Assembly: GCA_020846025.1 (NCBI GenBank) | Contig: JADLER010000117.1 | Coordinates: 1-47,047, forward strand | Reading direction: 5' to 3' | DNA length: 47,047 bases | Origin: Bacteroidia bacterium | GTDB lineage: Bacteria > Bacteroidota > Bacteroidia > B-17B0 > Aurantibacillaceae | Part shown: positions 1 through 8,805 of the stretch, in pieces | Layout: each line of letters opens with the position of its first letter | Position numbering within the stretch: position 1 is the first letter of the stretch | Notes under the pieces: model-generated | Database searches by the model: none | What the model was told of the DNA's origin: nothing | The model's input: the letters and a program-made list of their open reading frames with translations, nothing else | Program-made: the position numbers and the translations under genes

Positions 1-1017
1 ACCAGTTGCTACTGGGTCAAAATTAAACCCCCCTCCAGAAAATTCTCCACTTAAATAAACATTTTCGTTATTATCTACGTCAATAGTTTTAATATAATCC
101 TGAGCATGACTTCCTACTCTTTTCGCCCATATTGGTTGTAAAGTAGCGGCATTGTATTTCGCAACAAATCCGTCATCTCCGCCCTTACTAGTTATATTTA
201 CACCTATTGAAGAAATGCTAAATATCTCTGAAAACTGACCTGCCAAATATAAGTTATTGTTTTTTAATGTAATAGAATTGATCTCGCCATAAGGACTAGA
301 AAAATTATTTTGCAAGTTTATGTAATTAAATGATACATAATTACAAGCGGTATCATAGCTAACCATTATAGGATAGGCAACTCCGTTACTTCCCGAATTA
401 AATAAACCAGCACCCGAAGCATTTTTAATATCTGTATTAGTTCCTTTAAAAGCATAGCCACCAACAAACAATCTTTCAGAACCATTTACATCTCCCACTG
501 TAATTGTGTTGAGTTTAGCTGTGGTCTTGTATGCCCATAATGGATTTCCATTCGTACTAAGTTTAACCAAAAAATATGAGGCTGATGTAATGGTTAATGT
601 AATTGGATTTACTGTTCCAATACTAATATTTGCAGAAGTATATCCTAATGCGTAAATATTGTTATCACTATCAGTTGCTATATCTACAATTTTTGTTTCT
701 TGTGTATTTGCAAAGTTTAAATGAGCTTGGTAATTTTCATTTGAATCCATTATGCTAATTACTCCACTATAAAAACTACTCGCCCCTGTAACCACCACTG
801 TAGAATCGGGGTTTGGGTCAACATCAATATTATATCTGTAGTTAGTTACTGAAACAAGGTGCCCGTCTGGAGTTACTACAGAGGCAGCTTGTTCTGTTTG
901 ATAATTAGTTGCTGGAAATGCTTTTGTCCATTGATGCCCAAGTGTTAGAGGCATTTGTGCTTTAATTGCACCTGCAAACAAGAAAATGATTGATGCAGAT
1001 AGTAGTAATTTTTTCAT
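1..1017 (-). CDS. Secreted beta-propeller (SBBP-like) protein, C-terminus outside window
   Basis: An uninterrupted frame of 339 codons runs from an ATG at 1017 to the window edge, so the C-terminal part is missing. Residues 1-21 form a typical signal peptide (MKKLLLSASII... ending AGAIKAQ). The mature part has recurring blades of the form D-x-D-x-N-N-x-Y-x-x-G, for example DSDNNIYALG, LKNNNLYLAG and DNNENVYLSGEFSGG followed by FDP, which is the pattern of SBBP-type seven-bladed propellers. Such proteins in this phylum usually end in a T9SS sorting domain, but that end is not visible here. The gene is preceded by a promoter block that is duplicated in front of the WG-repeat gene at 2936. Function is unknown; it is probably an exported surface or secreted protein. 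Confidence 0.8.
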   Translation of the reverse strand, partial: MKKLLLSASIIFLFAGAIKAQMPLTLGHQWTKAFPATNYQTEQAASVVTPDGHLVSVTNYRYNIDVDPNPDSTVVVTGASSFYSGVISIMDSNENYQAHLNFANTQETKIVDIATDSDNNIYALGYTSANISIGTVNPITLTITSASYFLVKLSTNGNPLWAYKTTAKLNTITVGDVNGSERLFVGGYAFKGTNTDIKNASGAGLFNSGSNGVAYPIMVSYDTACNYVSFNYINLQNNFSSPYGEINSITLKNNNLYLAGQFSEIFSISSIGVNITSKGGDDGFVAKYNAATLQPIWAKRVGSHAQDYIKTIDVDNNENVYLSGEFSGGGFNFDPVATG

Positions 1018-1121
1018 ATTTATTTTTTTAATTAAAGTATATAAGTAGCGAAAATATGTTTTTAAAAACTCATATCAAGAGTTTCTTTCCCAATGACGGG
1101 TTTGAGTTTCCGAACGACGAT
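1015..1121 (-). repeat. Upstream direct repeat, copy A
   Basis: This block of about 107 bp, from the start codon of the propeller gene outward, is repeated upstream of the WG-repeat gene (copy B, 2934-3038) in the same orientation. The outer 70 bp or so are nearly identical, differing at three bases clustered at 1095-1100. The part next to the start codon differs by several substitutions and two bases in length. Similarity stops abruptly after GACGAT. The repeat carries a promoter and a possible operator. Confidence 0.85.
1049..1118 (-). promoter_or_regulatory. Promoter with 21-bp-spaced direct repeat (candidate LytTR operator), copy A
   Basis: On the minus strand a TTG (1076-1078) is separated by 19 bases from TATTTTCG (1049-1056). 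This matches the Bacteroidota housekeeping promoter TTG-N19-TAnnTTTG at all but one base. Directly upstream are two similar sites, GTCATTGGG (1089-1097) and GTCGTTCGG (1110-1118), whose starts are 21 bp apart; each is followed by GAAA. LytTR regulators bind 9-bp direct repeats about two helical turns apart beside the -35 region, and a LytTR gene lies directly upstream. The assignment to that regulator is inference. Confidence 0.5.
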
Positions 1122-1197
1122 TTTGACTGTAGTTACAAAAAACAAAAGTTCCCATTTTGCAATGAAAACCTTCGTTAATGAATTTAATTAAGTAAAT

Positions 1198-2016
1198 CTA
1201 AATGATAGTATTATTACCTAAAGCTTCTATTTTTTCTATACAATCTTTTCGATGATTACGCGATACTTCGGCGCACTTACCACTTTTAAAGCTAACTACG
1301 CCAGCTTCCCCTTTTTTAAGAAAGGAAGATATATGCAAAATATTTACAAAATAAGAGCGATGGACTTTTATAAAATGGTTGATGTGTTGCAATACTTCTT
1401 CAAAATATCCCATAGGTTTTGAAACCAGTTTTTCGCTTCCATCAATTAAGTGAATGATAGAATATGATCTGTGAGCTTCAATAAATTCTATATTATCAAT
1501 TACTATGTATTCATAGCCATAATTAAGAGGAATCGTTAAAACGCCAGTATTTTTCTGCTCCAGATTGCTCAATAAGGCTTTGAATTTTTCAGCGTTTTGT
1601 TTTAATTCTTTTGCTTCAATTGCCCTTGCCAGGGCTTGTAGCAATTCCTTTTCCTGTATCGGTTTCAATAAATAATCAATCGCAGATAATTTAAATGCCT
1701 GTATAGCATATTCGTTATATGCGGTTGTAAAAATAACTTCGCAACCAACCTGAGCCATGTCAAGCTCACCAAACAACTCCAGGCCAGATTTCCCTGGCAT
1801 ATTAATATCCAAGAAAACTATGTCTGGCTTTGTTTTATCAATCAGTTCTACAGCCTGCATCACATTCTCAGCTTCTCCTATAATGTTTACATGAGGCGCT
1901 AATTCGTTGAGCATCAATCGAAGCAATTCACGTGCAGATTCTGCATCGTCCACCAAAATTGCCGTGTAATGAGTTTGGCGGAAAGTGTTTTTATTTTCAG
2001 TATTTTTCAATCCCAT
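1198..2016 (-). CDS. LytTR-family response regulator
   Basis: This 272-residue protein has an N-terminal receiver domain and a C-terminal LytTR DNA-binding domain. The receiver shows the acidic pair D23-D24, the phospho-acceptor D70 (VFLDINMPG), T98 and K118 (YLLKPI). The LytTR domain spans about residues 160-265, with the typical FIEAHRSYSIIHL and FIKVHRSYFVN segments. It would be phosphorylated by a LytS-type histidine kinase; the obvious candidate is the kinase at 3200-6091, from which it is separated by one secreted-protein gene. No copy of the 21-bp-spaced repeat seen at the neighbouring genes was found before its own start. The start at 2016 gives a 17-residue leader before the receiver core; a slightly later start is possible. 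Confidence 0.93.
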   Translation of the reverse strand: MGLKNTENKNTFRQTHYTAILVDDAESARELLRLMLNELAPHVNIIGEAENVMQAVELIDKTKPDIVFLDINMPGKSGLELFGELDMAQVGCEVIFTTAYNEYAIQAFKLSAIDYLLKPIQEKELLQALARAIEAKELKQNAEKFKALLSNLEQKNTGVLTIPLNYGYEYIVIDNIEFIEAHRSYSIIHLIDGSEKLVSKPMGYFEEVLQHINHFIKVHRSYFVNILHISSFLKKGEAGVVSFKSGKCAEVSRNHRKDCIEKIEALGNNTII

Positions 2017-2072
2017 AAATTTACATTATAATTCTAAATTATGATAACTCTTTGATGGGTTCAGTGGTATAA

Positions 2073-2112
2073 ACAAATAAGTCTGTTCATAAAGGTGAAC
2101 AGGCTTATTTGT
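2073..2112 (-). terminator. Long hairpin downstream of the WG-repeat gene
   Basis: Two 17-base arms (2073-2089 and 2096-2112) pair completely apart from one G-U position around a 6-base loop. On the minus strand the hairpin is followed by TTTATACC, and on the plus strand by a short T-rich stretch. It lies between the WG-repeat gene and the response regulator, so it probably ends the upstream transcript. The T tract is short, so strength is uncertain. Confidence 0.6.
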
Positions 2113-2138
2113 GTGTTTTTATATTGATTTTTTAAAAT

Positions 2139-2936
2139 CTATTTTATTTTTACCCATGAGTGATACTGAGCATTTCCTTGTTTAGGATAGTTGGGGTTGC
2201 GTGCTGGGCAATTTTCATTAGTTATTCCTGTAGCATTTTCGTTACAATTGCCTTGAGCTGTTTTACCACAATTGTATTTGCACTTATAATTGCATTTTTC
2301 AGCTTTTTTGTCATCAGTGTTTGTATTACTGTTATCGTTGCTAGATGTACTTTCCGCCTCACCTATTTCTTGCCCATTGGCATCCAATTTCATCACTTTA
2401 TTGTCACTTTTACGAACGGCATTAAAAGTAATTGGATTTTTTGAGGCTTTTTGTAACACAAGGTATTCAGGTGCTGTAAGTATTTTTTCTTCGTTAGCCA
2501 ATGCAGAACTACCATTTTTATCTCTTGCGGCATAATAGCGATCTTCTCCTTCAACACCTAAATAACTAAAGTAATTAATAGCAGATTGCACTTCATTTCC
2601 TGTTTTGTCAATAAAAATCTTATTACCATTCAAGACAACTTGCATTAAGCCCCCAGTATACCAAGTATAAGAGTATTCAAAGACCATACCTTCGTATTGA
2701 TGTGGGATTACCAATTTTCCATCATTGTCATAAAAACCCCATTTCCCTTTAAGTTTTGCAGGTATCAAATTGGCTTTACTATTGTAATCCTCTATTCTAT
2801 CAAATTTTTCCTTTACAATTTTTTTACCGTCTTTTTCCAAATACAGACTAGAACCTTCTCCGCCTTTTTGGATGTTTTGAGCGTAAGTTGTAGTTGTTGC
2901 TAGAACAATCGCTGCTAAAAGCAAAATTTTTTTCAT
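2139..2936 (-). CDS. Secreted WG-repeat protein with Cys-rich tail
   Basis: The 265-residue product has a signal peptide (residues 1-20, ending TTTTYAQ). Residues 62-84 contain a WG-type repeat, GKWGFYDNDGKLVIPHQYEG, followed by a weaker unit around 100-116. A low-complexity Ser/Asn/Asp/Thr linker (about 195-210) leads to a short tail with five cysteines (C215, C219, C223, C231, C243). No T9SS sorting domain is visible. The gene lies between the LytTR regulator and its likely kinase but has its own promoter, which is a copy of the one before the propeller gene at 1017. Function is unknown. The extracytoplasmic location and the Cys tail suggest a disulfide-stabilised or metal-binding end, which is inference. 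Confidence 0.85.
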   Translation of the reverse strand: MKKILLLAAIVLATTTTYAQNIQKGGEGSSLYLEKDGKKIVKEKFDRIEDYNSKANLIPAKLKGKWGFYDNDGKLVIPHQYEGMVFEYSYTWYTGGLMQVVLNGNKIFIDKTGNEVQSAINYFSYLGVEGEDRYYAARDKNGSSALANEEKILTAPEYLVLQKASKNPITFNAVRKSDNKVMKLDANGQEIGEAESTSSNDNSNTNTDDKKAEKCNYKCKYNCGKTAQGNCNENATGITNENCPARNPNYPKQGNAQYHSWVKIK

Positions 2937-3038
2937 ATTTATTTTTTATTAAAGTTTATAAGCGGCGAAAATATGTTTTTAAAAACTCATATCAAGAGTT
3001 TCTTTCCCAATGGTGGATTTGAGTTTCCGAACGACGAT
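2934..3038 (-). repeat. Upstream direct repeat, copy B
   Basis: Second copy of the block at 1015-1121, again starting at the gene's start codon and ending after GACGAT. The promoter and distal half-site are identical to copy A. The proximal half-site reads ACCATTGGG instead of GTCATTGGG. The offset between copies is about 1.92 kb, and the whole response-regulator gene lies between them. Confidence 0.85.
2966..3035 (-). promoter_or_regulatory. Promoter with 21-bp-spaced direct repeat, copy B
   Basis: On the minus strand TTG (2993-2995), 19 bases, then TATTTTCG (2966-2973), as in copy A. The half-sites lie at 3006-3014 (proximal) and 3027-3035 (distal), with starts 21 bp apart, and the proximal one is next to the -33 element. 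Retention of this layout in both copies is the main argument that it is a functional operator. Confidence 0.5.
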
Positions 3039-3203
3039 AATTTACGCCTCAGTTCTTATAGCAAATGTAATTTTGATTTAGACCAAAGATGTTTAGTTAT
3101 TTTTTATCAAGGTGATGAAAAAAATCGTTGCATAGCTTTACCTACGGAACTATTTTTTAAAGAAGCATTGATGAAAAAGAGCAAGCAGATTGGGGTAAAT
3201 TAA
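2973..3203 (+). other. Possible small ORF or gene relic over the duplicated block
   Basis: A 76-codon frame begins inside the -10-like element of the minus-strand WG gene and overlaps the end of the kinase gene by 4 bp. Its first 22 codons lie in the duplicated block and are also open in copy A, where the frame continues to a stop at 1176-1178 (40 codons). The later part reads like ordinary protein (LVIFYQGDEKNRCIALPTEL). No ribosome-binding or promoter signal was found for it. It could be a relic of a gene whose 5' end was duplicated, a small gene, or chance. I do not recognise a family. Confidence 0.2.
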
Positions 3204-6091
3204 TTTATATTTGGTATTACTTTTAGCTTTACAGTTGTACCCAGAGCTTGCTTATTTTCATCGTATAAATCGTGAATCATAAAACTTACTGTTTGATGGT
3301 GTTTGTTCAATAATTCAATACGTTTTTGTATTGCACTTGTGGCAAAAGATTCGTGCTTGAGTTTTTCGGTTTCCTTTATTTGTTGAGCAGCAACTCTACC
3401 AATGCCATTATCAGTAATCTCAATCTCTATTGAATCAGAAGTTGAAGGTGAAAAAGAAATAATCAGTTGTTTGTTGCCTTGTTTATTGTGCAAGCCATGC
3501 TTAAAAGCATTTTCTATAAAAGGCTGCAAAATTAATGATGGCATATAGGTTTGTTCAATATCAAGATTATCATCAATATTAATCTGGAACGAAAAGTCAT
3601 CACCAAGCAACATAGCTTCCATGTCAATGTATAATTTCAGCATCCTAATTTCTTCACTTAATGAAATGAGTGGTTTGTTGCTCATCTGTAAAAACATTCT
3701 AATCAAATCAGAAAACTCGTTTAAGTAAGAAGTGGCTTTTTGCTTATCATTTTTGTAGATATATGCCTTAATGGAGTTTAAAACATTAAACACAAAATGT
3801 GGGTTCATTTGTGATTTAAGGGCAGTTTCTCTGCTTAATCGTAATTCGTTTTCAAGATTTATGCGTTCTATTTCTTTACGTTGCAATTGTTGCATTTTGC
3901 GAATGCGAATTGTATATATAATGTAGGAAAGAACTAAAATCAGTATTGCAATTAACACATTAAACCAAAGGCTTTTCCAAAAAGGAGGTTTTATGGTTCC
4001 GCTTAACACAATGGTGTTTTCCGAATCTAATCCCAAATGATTAATAACTTTTAATTGAATTTCAAAAAAGCCTGGCGGAATATTTTGTATATCAATTTGT
4101 TCGATGGACGAAGGTAGTTTTACCCAACTTGTATCTGTAGAATTTATGCGATACAGATATTGAAAATTGCCATTGCTATTGTAGGTACTTGCCTCTGGAA
4201 ACAGTACAAGGGATTCGCCATAGTTTAGTGTTAAATTAGTAGGATTATGAGTGAGTGTTTTTCCAGCAATTATTTTTTTTAGATAAACAATAGACGTTGA
4301 TTTGTCGTAAGTTTCGGTTAAAGGAATTTTTTGCACCCCTTTTCCAGTAGCAAGCCACACGTTCTCATTGGTAATAACAAGGCTTTGTATATTGTCTGAA
4401 GCAAGCCCCGAAAGTTTAGTTATTGTTTCCCATGTGTTTTTTTTGATAGAGTATTTCCAAAGGCCTTTGTTGGTTGCGACATATATAATTTCATTATGCT
4501 TCTTTATTTTTAAGGCTTGTGTTTTATCTAAAATTTCCGAAACAAATTTACTTTCACCATCTTGATTTACCGAGTATATCTTTCCATTAAATGTTAAAGC
4601 GTAAATCAGTTTTAATTCTTTATCAAAATTGATGGAAAGTATTTGTTCGCCTTTAAATAAAGTAGTTTGAGCACTCCATTCATTATTTTGATAAACAACT
4701 TTCATTAAGCCATCGCTGCTTGCTACCCACACTGTATGATTGCTCTCATCGTATTCTATCTCTCGTATCCAACGTGATTTTATAATTTTGTTATTTATAT
4801 ATAAGCCATGTGAGCTACCAATGAAACAATCGTTACCAATTTGTTTTATCGTTTTTATAGCCTTTACCCCAATATCTTGATGCGTAATTGTATTTTCTTT
4901 TAATGAAAATAAATTGTTGTTTGTATAAAAACGTAATGTTTTCGTATTTATATCATAATCAAAGCTTTGTATATCACCGTGATTACCTGTGTGAAACGTT
5001 GTAAGTTGATGTGTATTATGATTTAATTTCCCAATAGTTCCATCAATAGTTGCAAAATAGATATGGTCATCTCCATAAGTTATTTTTACAACCTTATCAT
5101 TATCTAGTAATTTATTATCTGTATTCCAAACTAATAGATGTATATTAGGAATTCTCAACAAGCCTGTTTGCAGAGTGCTGAACCAGTAATTTCCTTCACG
5201 ATCCATCGTACAATCCGAAAATGATATTTCTGGATAAAATAATTCTGCAACTTCTGAATCTGTGTTATATTTAATAATTCCTTTATATGTACAAATCCAT
5301 AAGTTTTCGTCAGGTAATGTTATTACATTAGTTATTTTACGATTAGCTAGTAAATTTAATAGATTAGAATTATTGAATGGCTCTATGTTGTTTTTTGAAT
5401 ACCTGTAAATGGTATTATTTTCTGTTGCAAATAGCCACAATTTTTGCTTGTAATATTCTGTAAAAAATAATCCAGGCGATTGTTTTTTAAAAATATCCGT
5501 TTTAAATAAGTCTTTTTTCCCTCTTATAAATTGGGCAATTCCATTTGATTCTAAAAAAAATACTGTATCATTTGGATGGTGCTTTGAATTTTTTGTTACA
5601 TAACTATTAGTTGTAATGGCCAATTCGTAATTATTGGTTCCAAATTTTGTCCAATTATTTTTTTGTTCGTTGTAAATATGAATTCCTCCCGAATGACTAA
5701 TAAAAACTTCTCCATTTTCATTACTAGTAATGCTGGTGATTTTACTAGGAAACAGATTGCTAATTTCAATAAGTGTATCGCCTTGTAGCATGAAAACTTG
5801 CGATTGAAAATTGAAACAATAAAGCTTGCCACTTGATGAAATAGTTAAGCCAGTAACTGATTTTGCTTTTTGTTTTGGCCCCTTGTAGAGCCTGCATCTA
5901 ATACCGTCATATTTATACAATCCTGCATCGCAACCAAACCACACAAAGCCTTTGTTATCTTGAACAAGGCTGTAAATTTCGTTACTTGGCAACCCACCTT
6001 CATCATTATAAGTAAAGCATTGAGGATATTGAGCAACTATTATTTTATGTAATAGCAGAGTAATAACGAATATGTATCTTTTAAAATTCAT
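3200..6091 (-). CDS. Propeller-type sensor histidine kinase (LytS-like)
   Basis: This is a 963-residue membrane sensor. A signal peptide (1-20) precedes a large periplasmic region with two-component-regulator propeller blades; the first reads GLPSNEIYSLVQDNKGFVWFG. A Y_Y_Y-type domain follows at about 640-705 (YLYRINSTDTSWVKL), then one membrane helix (about 712-735) and a coiled segment. The cytosolic kinase has the His_kinase family box QMNPHFVFN with His765, an N box FIENAFKHG with Asn861, and DNGIG at 894-898. The kinase core is of the LytS/YehU type, whose usual partners are LytTR regulators such as the one at 1198-2016. The periplasmic propeller suggests sensing of an extracytoplasmic ligand, as in hybrid two-component systems, but no ligand can be deduced. 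It is not a hybrid, since it has no receiver domain. Confidence 0.93.
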   Translation of the reverse strand: MNFKRYIFVITLLLHKIIVAQYPQCFTYNDEGGLPSNEIYSLVQDNKGFVWFGCDAGLYKYDGIRCRLYKGPKQKAKSVTGLTISSSGKLYCFNFQSQVFMLQGDTLIEISNLFPSKITSITSNENGEVFISHSGGIHIYNEQKNNWTKFGTNNYELAITTNSYVTKNSKHHPNDTVFFLESNGIAQFIRGKKDLFKTDIFKKQSPGLFFTEYYKQKLWLFATENNTIYRYSKNNIEPFNNSNLLNLLANRKITNVITLPDENLWICTYKGIIKYNTDSEVAELFYPEISFSDCTMDREGNYWFSTLQTGLLRIPNIHLLVWNTDNKLLDNDKVVKITYGDDHIYFATIDGTIGKLNHNTHQLTTFHTGNHGDIQSFDYDINTKTLRFYTNNNLFSLKENTITHQDIGVKAIKTIKQIGNDCFIGSSHGLYINNKIIKSRWIREIEYDESNHTVWVASSDGLMKVVYQNNEWSAQTTLFKGEQILSINFDKELKLIYALTFNGKIYSVNQDGESKFVSEILDKTQALKIKKHNEIIYVATNKGLWKYSIKKNTWETITKLSGLASDNIQSLVITNENVWLATGKGVQKIPLTETYDKSTSIVYLKKIIAGKTLTHNPTNLTLNYGESLVLFPEASTYNSNGNFQYLYRINSTDTSWVKLPSSIEQIDIQNIPPGFFEIQLKVINHLGLDSENTIVLSGTIKPPFWKSLWFNVLIAILILVLSYIIYTIRIRKMQQLQRKEIERINLENELRLSRETALKSQMNPHFVFNVLNSIKAYIYKNDKQKATSYLNEFSDLIRMFLQMSNKPLISLSEEIRMLKLYIDMEAMLLGDDFSFQINIDDNLDIEQTYMPSLILQPFIENAFKHGLHNKQGNKQLIISFSPSTSDSIEIEITDNGIGRVAAQQIKETEKLKHESFATSAIQKRIELLNKHHQTVSFMIHDLYDENKQALGTTVKLKVIPNIN

Positions 6092-6846: not shown

Positions 6847-8805
6847 TTATTTAAAAATCAACTTAAACTCTAAGCGACGATTCATAGCGTGTTCATCATC
6901 ACTACATATTACATCATTCCCGCAGTTGTTGAGTAGTTTAGATTCGCCATACCCTTTGGCGATAATACGACTACCATCTATTCCTTTTGAGATAATGTAA
7001 TTTTTAGCTGAGTTTGCACGGCGCTCGCTAAGTATTAAGTTGTAAGAATCACTACCTTTACTATCGGAGTGTGCACTAAGTTCAATAGATAATTGTTCGT
7101 TATTTTTTAGTGCTAAAACTACTTTATCTAATGTAAGTTGAGATTGAGGTTGTAAATCTGCCTTATTAAATTCAAATAAAATGTTTTCCATAATTGTGGT
7201 ATTACTTTGTTTTGTAACATCCGTACCTGCTTTTTTCTCAACTAAAGAAAGCCATGGATCTTCAACATAAATATCGGCTAATTTGCTAAACTCTGTTTTT
7301 AAGGGTTTATATTGAAATTTTTTACCTTTTATAAGCGATACCAATTTTATTAAATTATCACTATTATCAAAAACCATTATATTATTAAAGGACTCAAGAA
7401 TACTGTTTTCATTGTTTATGGTTAACAAAACTTGTTTAGTATATGGTAGATGTTTAAAACTAAAATCACCTTCTTTGTTGGTAGTTGCCGAATCAATGGT
7501 TTGAAATTTATCATTGAGTAACAATACTTTCATATCAGCAAGTGGGTTATTTTTGTTATTGCCATAAAGCCGTCCTGTGAAATTCATTTTCAATTCGTTT
7601 TCATCTACTAATAACTCATTAAAGTTATCATCACTTATTGCTAAAAATTTATAGATGAATTTTTTATTAGCAACCGAATCTAGTCTTCTAATAAATTTAT
7701 CCTTTAGGCTATATAAATTCATAATAAAGTTTAACTCTGCATCGGCGCTATCGTAGGCAATACGATATTCGTAGCCAGGCACAATATTTTTAAAATAAAA
7801 TATTCCTAAGGAATTTGTTTTAGCTTTTTGAATTACGGTGTTTTTATTATTTAATAGATAGATGGTTTTATTTGCCCCTATCTTTTTTTCAGTTTCGTTA
7901 GTGGCAATTAATTTTGCTGAAATAAAATAACTGTATTCGTTATTTTCTAGTTTATCTGATAATTGGTTATTTATATTTTTAAAAATAAAATTAAAGTTAG
8001 GGTCAAATAAAACAGACTCAATAGTTTCACCATCTGCAGTTGATAACAAAATTTTTTGATTTGTTGGGTTTTCATTCTGCGGAACAATGACTTCAAGTGT
8101 TTCAAAATTATCAGAGGCTACATTTTTAAAAACAAACTTGCCCTGGTTACTTGTTTGAACTTTGGCAACTACCTCTCCTTTTTTATTTTTAATGACAACG
8201 GTTTTATTTCTAATTGGTGTTTTTTTATCATTATCTAGATGTAGCTTACCTGCTAATTGTAAGTATTCTTTAATTTTTTCGGTAGTTAATATTGGAACCG
8301 TTGTATCTTTTTTAGGCTCAGGTTTTTTGATATAAACTTTTTGTAAGAATGTATTCATGTAAACTGTGTCATCTACAAATTTTGAGTTTCCATCAAATCG
8401 AATTTGATGAAAAGGTTTAGTAAATTGAGTAGAATCTACCTTAGTTGCATCTAATGTAAAAAACGGAATATCTAGTGCGTAAGTAATTTTATAATGCCTT
8501 TTATTTTCAGGTATGTCATTGGCATGTATTCTAATAAACATTTTTTGAGTTCTTGCATTACTAAAATAAATGTCATAAGTTTTTCCGAAGGGTAATACGG
8601 TTTTAAAGCTACTTTCTTCCTTTGTATTAAATTCTTTTATGATTTTAGAGTTTGCAACAATTTTAATAGTGGTATTAGTTAATGGTTTTTGCTGATAATA
8701 GTTTTTACCTTCAAAAGTAAGATGCCCATCATAAACCTGTGCTATTAATTGTGTAATACAACTTATAAAAAAGATAATAAAAAAAAGTCGTTTTAAAACC
8801 ATCAT
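6847..8805 (-). CDS. OmpA-domain outer-membrane protein with repeated beta-sandwich modules
   Basis: The 652-residue protein begins with a signal peptide (MMVLKRLFFIIFFIS... ending TQLIAQ). Several modules in the middle share a pattern such as GKLHLDNDKKTPIRNKTVVIKN...GKFVFKNV, which resembles carboxypeptidase-regulatory or SdrD-B-like sandwich domains (about 185-260, 290-350, 410-480). The C-terminus (541-652) is an OmpA-like peptidoglycan-binding domain with NILFEFNKADL, LSAHSDSKGS, LSERRANSAKNYI and NRRLEFKL. No T9SS sorting domain is present. The likely role is anchoring the outer membrane or a surface structure to peptidoglycan. It is grouped with dNK and folK on the same strand, with a 11-bp gap. 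Confidence 0.85.
   Translation of the reverse strand: MMVLKRLFFIIFFISCITQLIAQVYDGHLTFEGKNYYQQKPLTNTTIKIVANSKIIKEFNTKEESSFKTVLPFGKTYDIYFSNARTQKMFIRIHANDIPENKRHYKITYALDIPFFTLDATKVDSTQFTKPFHQIRFDGNSKFVDDTVYMNTFLQKVYIKKPEPKKDTTVPILTTEKIKEYLQLAGKLHLDNDKKTPIRNKTVVIKNKKGEVVAKVQTSNQGKFVFKNVASDNFETLEVIVPQNENPTNQKILLSTADGETIESVLFDPNFNFIFKNINNQLSDKLENNEYSYFISAKLIATNETEKKIGANKTIYLLNNKNTVIQKAKTNSLGIFYFKNIVPGYEYRIAYDSADAELNFIMNLYSLKDKFIRRLDSVANKKFIYKFLAISDDNFNELLVDENELKMNFTGRLYGNNKNNPLADMKVLLLNDKFQTIDSATTNKEGDFSFKHLPYTKQVLLTINNENSILESFNNIMVFDNSDNLIKLVSLIKGKKFQYKPLKTEFSKLADIYVEDPWLSLVEKKAGTDVTKQSNTTIMENILFEFNKADLQPQSQLTLDKVVLALKNNEQLSIELSAHSDSKGSDSYNLILSERRANSAKNYIISKGIDGSRIIAKGYGESKLLNNCGNDVICSDDEHAMNRRLEFKLIFK

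Follow-up and report, generated by a model that had tools for sequence, protein, structure and literature searches.

LytTR domains contact DNA by loops and not by a recognition helix. The response regulators AgrA, VirR and YpdB are alike in combining a receiver domain with a LytTR domain and in recognizing two 9-bp direct repeats, separated by a 12-bp spacer, upstream of the promoter. Published LytTR sites consist of 9-11 bp repeats that lie 11-13 bp apart and have no common consensus (PMC4847170), which, together with binding by loops, makes LytTR targets hard to predict. Specificity is said to be set by variable loop residues (PMC4847170), and the DNA-contacting residues of AgrA are His169, Asn201 and Arg233 (PMC11424843). 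Most LytTR regulators are activators bound upstream of the -35 element (PMC11347149), and for one class of LytTR operons the commonest distance of the repeat upstream of that element is 10 bp (PMC6193735). The LytTR Regulatory Systems (LRS) HdrRM and BrsRM of S. mutans have 9-12-9 repeats just upstream of -35 and are positively autoregulated, and direct repeats before LytTR operons have already been reported in Bacteroides (PMC6193735). LytTR regulators with 9-12-9 repeats are thus already known. In the limited open-access literature, we found no description of the Bacteroidota cassette geometry or of the link between regulator residue 183 and a half-site triplet that we report here, and we found no literature on LytTR regulators with propeller kinases or in Chitinophaga.

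The window, by which we mean the whole 47,047-nucleotide stretch of DNA that was analyzed, carries on its minus strand, in this order, a kinase gene, copy 2 of a promoter block, a WG-repeat gene, a hairpin, a LytTR regulator gene, block copy 1 and an SBBP gene. The 272-aa regulator (1198-2016) has the receiver domain (Pfam PF00072, 9.9e-25) and the LytTR domain (PF04397, 1.1e-12) of LytTR two-component response regulators. Near its gene is that of a LytS-type partner kinase (3200-6091), a sensor histidine kinase composed of a Reg_prop propeller, Y_Y_Y and His_kinase (PF06580, 2.2e-20). The predicted targets both have a signal-peptide-like start: a 265-aa WG-repeat protein (2139-2936), recognized by its ORF, a domain search and an orthologue in the related genome G008, and an SBBP beta-propeller protein (1-1017) truncated by the contig end. 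A 17-bp hairpin (2073-2112) lies between the WG-repeat gene and the regulator gene.

The earlier note had described a block of about 105 bp upstream of both secreted-protein genes that flank the regulator, and block comparison bears this out. Copy 1 (1015-1121) precedes the SBBP gene and copy 2 (2934-3038) the WG-repeat gene; both are on the minus strand, each ends at an ORF start, and 1007-1121 aligns in register with 2924-3038 at 88% identity over 115 nt and 93% over a 107-nt core. The promoter elements named in that note, TTG-N19-TATTTTCG, are present in both copies, and approximately 44 nt running through them are identical. These elements are a -33 TTG (1076-1078 in copy 1 and 2993-2995 in copy 2) and the -7 element TATTTTCG (1049-1056 and 2966-2973), an arrangement that agrees, with one mismatch in TTTG, with the Bacteroidota sigma-A promoter, in which TTG precedes TAnnTTTG by about 19-20 bp. 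A pattern scan locates the paired half-sites as GTCGTTCGG-N12-GTCATTGGG in copy 1 (1089-1118; distal half-site 1110-1118, proximal half-site 1089-1097) and as GTCGTTCGG-N12-ACCATTGGG in copy 2 (3006-3035; distal 3027-3035, proximal 3006-3014). Their starts are exactly 21 bp apart in both copies, as had been claimed, and from the start of the proximal half-site to that of the -7 element it is 41 bp. The proximal half-site had also been described as touching the -33 element, which is incorrect, as 10 bp (AAAGAAACTC) separate it from the TTG. The match to the published WMMGTTNRK consensus is indeed only partial, at 7/9 and 6/9 positions counted by eye.

A 9-12-9 pair located 10 bp from the TTG has the layout of a LytTR site, with a spacer within the 11-13 bp range and a position upstream of the promoter. 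In this it is like the sites of HdrRM and BrsRM. However, a membrane inhibitor gene is absent from the window system, whose regulator includes a receiver domain and is partnered by a kinase. Because the kinase and receiver domain are present, we rejected an assignment to the LRS, in which a LytTR regulator lacking both is encoded together with a membrane inhibitor. Compared with AgrA, VirR and YpdB, the window differs in that its half-sites carry NGG and match WMMGTTNRK partly, its promoter is of the Bacteroidota -33/-7 type, and its kinase has a large propeller sensor. Clusters of a propeller kinase, a LytTR regulator and secreted proteins in other Bacteroidota share both the neighbourhood and the box geometry of the window, but most of them have CAC, CAT or CGT, or GCT or CCT, with Gly or Glu in the loop, whereas the window has NGG and Arg. 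The YpdB repeat GGCATTTCAT resembles the RYCATTCAC half-site of the window's relatives (PMC4847170).

We consider it highly likely, from sequence comparison, that the blocks are sigma-A promoters with a LytTR box through which the adjacent kinase-regulator pair activates both secreted-protein genes. The box would comprise two half-sites, RYC[AG]TT-NGG-AA, 21 bp apart and spanning about -74 to -45. When the -7 box is set as -12 to -5 (PMC9723704), the half-sites fall at about -74/-66 and -53/-45, on one helix face and just upstream of -33. The propeller kinase would sense a signal and phosphorylate the regulator (1198-2016), a pair of regulator molecules would occupy the two half-sites on one helix face, and the bound regulator would recruit RNA polymerase, so that the WG-repeat and SBBP secreted proteins would be turned on together. 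We infer activation rather than repression from position alone: given the sites upstream of -33, the precedent of LytTR activators and a 10-bp gap equal to the commonest one in that class of LytTR operons, the adjacent regulator most likely activates both promoters. This proposal draws on features that are all read from sequence: the box and its geometry, its uniqueness in the genome, its conservation, and the way in which it covaries with the regulator.

The explanation that has to be weighed first is that the block is merely a recently duplicated promoter, whose half-sites bind nothing and whose 21-bp spacing is incidental. The copies do look like recent duplicates, being 88-93% identical even at positions without an expected function. 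Thus, they are not two independent occurrences, their similarity alone proves nothing about function, and other genomes must be compared. Within the window, the half-site pair has two matches against 0.05 expected by chance. Scanning the 3.24-Mb genome for the pair with up to three mismatches returned the window's two sites and one three-mismatch match, the latter no more than a reversed-pattern control gives, and no genome-wide pattern scan, including those with the -7 element added, found a pair above control level beyond the window's two sites. The earlier note had called for such a scan and had named random, promoter-unlinked occurrence as the refuting outcome; the opposite was found, with the pair confined to this locus. 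When 60 relatives were searched by BLAST with the whole block, the only matches beyond those in the window's genome were short, weak ones to AT-rich stretches. Two of the BLAST matches, C229 and C218, were set aside, as they carry no such box. Judged from these sequences, conservation of the block across relatives is visible only at the level of the motif.

At that level, the geometry recurs at unrelated loci that share the motif alone, which argues against a mere duplicate. We surveyed 61 non-redundant intergenic gaps after LytTR genes for direct repeats matching at 9 of 11 positions, without prescribing a motif and at all periods from 12 to 32. Such repeats have a period of 21 in 14 of the 61 gaps and of 20 in seven, and each other period occurs in zero to three. 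Nearby control gaps have a weaker 21-bp excess (36 of 447, versus 7-21 at other periods), and some of these may possibly be LytTR targets too. When aligned, the sites share RYC[AG]TT-NNN-[AG]A twice, often with ACTCAA in the spacer, and the -7 box is at 41 (42 where the frame shifts by one) for period 20 and period 21 alike. The window and many unrelated loci have TAnnTTTG at this distance of 41 bp from the proximal half-site. A geometry score of at least 19 is reached by 54 of 698 upstream regions with the true geometry, compared to 4, 2, 0 and 1 with wrong periods. Moving only the -7 box by five gives 17 and 12 regions, which exceed the wrong-period counts because the repeats themselves remain. 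As an individual case, the gap after the regulator in G015, which is 45% identical to that of the window, contains ACCATTCAC-N12-GTCATTCAC; there, as in the window, 41 bp lead from the start of the proximal half-site to that of TAGATTTG, and the gene that follows encodes a secreted LamG protein.

The duplicate explanation fares no better in G008, which has the closest regulator (66% identical, with the loop EAER). The contig carrying this regulator stops about 60 nt past the gene, and from the loop and this contig end an NGG box was predicted elsewhere in G008. On contig C11 of that genome, GTCACTCGGAA-N10-GCTATTCGGAA lies directly before an 883-aa SBBP orthologue (51% identical) of the gene at 1-1017. 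This orthologue has a T9SS sorting tail, and just upstream of the box is a WG orthologue (41%) with a hairpin and T-rich tail at its end. What is conserved of the block is the half-sites together with part of the spacer, and the remainder has diverged. Since the box is one of five pattern matches in G008 and the control count is six, its weight rests on its gene context. Given this box and the recurrence at unrelated loci, we regard a functionless duplicate as very unlikely.

The two genomes differ in gene order. The kinase and regulator genes of G008 overlap, with no gene between, so the WG unit of the window occupies a different place. Contig C11 (L326, WG-box-SBBP) starts near the start of its WG gene, and contig C83 (L054) ends about 60 nt past the regulator. 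A second box copy between C83 and C11 may have broken the assembly, in which case the order of the WG and regulator genes in G008 would be swapped relative to the window. The hairpin of the G008 WG gene has a GCCTGTTC stem similar to that of the window hairpin at 2073-2112, and the box may have moved together with the WG gene and the hairpin as a single unit.

Activation by the adjacent pair must also be set against the possibility that another LytTR regulator of the same genome binds the repeats. With the window regulator as query, we found at least three more LytTR-type regulators in the genome, and the sites of such regulators are similar in shape. Nevertheless, the box adjoins the regulator gene in several species, and the features of the regulators themselves point the same way. 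Residue 183, which precedes the equivalent of AgrA His169 by two residues, tracks the triplet that follows TT in the half-site: Arg occurs with NGG, Gly with CAC, CAT or CGT, and Glu with GCT, CCT or AAT. In the window regulator this residue is Arg183, in a predicted DNA-contacting L2 loop (EAHRSY; codon at 1468-1470 of the minus strand, computed from the ORF coordinates). When fixed patterns were applied to 196 regulators, 4 of the 22 with Arg and none of the 174 others had NGG pairs next to them, for a Fisher p-value of 1.2e-4 that ignores relatedness and includes near-duplicate rows in the Arg class. Adding L074 and G008 brings the Arg regulators with NGG sites to six; L074 had escaped the fixed pattern because one of its half-sites has AA instead of TT. 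The NGG idea was formed on part of these same data, and G008, L074, L226 and L264 were examined afterwards. For 18 of the 22 Arg regulators there is no NGG box in the searched flanks, and most of these are in other branches of the tree. NGG boxes were found beside Arg regulators only, and two regulators of the window's own genome that were examined (L187 and L205) lack Arg or Lys at the loop position, which leaves binding by another of its regulators highly improbable.

Position 183 is Gly or Glu in the 26 regulators whose sites are of another type, and only this column of 240 fully separates them from the six NGG regulators. In a maximum-likelihood tree, three changes on well-supported branches are the minimum needed for the NGG group: the window/G008 pair is sister to CAC-type regulators, L264 lies within a CAT-type clade, and an Aquimarina/Tenacibaculum clade stands beside GCT-type regulators. 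We lean towards the view that residue 183 is a natural specificity switch (Arg for NGG, Gly for CRY, Glu plus Lys220 for NNT) that has co-changed with its cis sites at least three times and separates paralogous cassettes within one genome. Arg183 itself probably reads the GG of each half-site. At the Aquimarina locus L067, an NGG box follows an Arg regulator, and about 1.5 kb from this regulator lies a Gly regulator with a CAT/CGC box before it; paralogous systems within this locus are apparently insulated from each other. The L067 boxes are at 1311-1341, 5909-5940 and 7201-7231, the one at 1311 being a further CAC box. Column 251 ranks next after 183, with Val in all six NGG regulators and mostly Leu or Ile elsewhere, and is a possible second determinant. 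Val251 of the regulator at 1198-2016 sits two residues before the equivalent of AgrA Arg233.

That the block is instead an RNA leader, or a mobile repeat that lies before both genes by chance, would fit a 105-bp repeat ending at start codons but is extremely improbable, as an Rfam search of the block gave no match, there are just two copies in the genome, and the expected transcript would not include the conserved half-sites, which precede the predicted -7 element. The earlier note's proposal that the adjacent kinase-regulator pair controls both genes is thus favoured by four lines of sequence evidence, namely the period enrichment, the 41-bp offset, the G008 box and the covariation of residue and triplet.

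Since regulators adjoin their sites in these loci, many regulator-site pairs can be read from genomes. The fixed promoter geometry offers a means of finding LytTR targets in Bacteroidota, and residue 183 provides a single testable residue-to-base link. At other loci, the products of the genes downstream of the box are LamG, NHL, Kelch, SBBP or cadherin proteins, which often carry a T9SS sorting tail, and the clusters suggest that a sensor kinase governs a small set of secreted proteins of its own, often ones exported by the T9SS.

Many relatives have a box before the regulator gene as well, which is reminiscent of the autoregulated HdrRM and BrsRM. Boxes before both the regulator gene and the next secreted-protein gene were seen at L038, L147, L162, L186, L214, L228, L231, L232, L238 and L242. 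The flanking of a LytTR gene by two boxes is thus a recurrent layout, which suggests that autoregulation through paired boxes is widespread among the relatives. Between copy 2 and the regulator gene of the window lie the WG-repeat gene and the hairpin, so that autoregulation from copy 2 is a possibility there. We also observed that ACTCAA occurs soon after the distal half-site, for example in the window spacer at 1098-1109, and is repeated in distant loci; the half-site spacer may also be read or bent.
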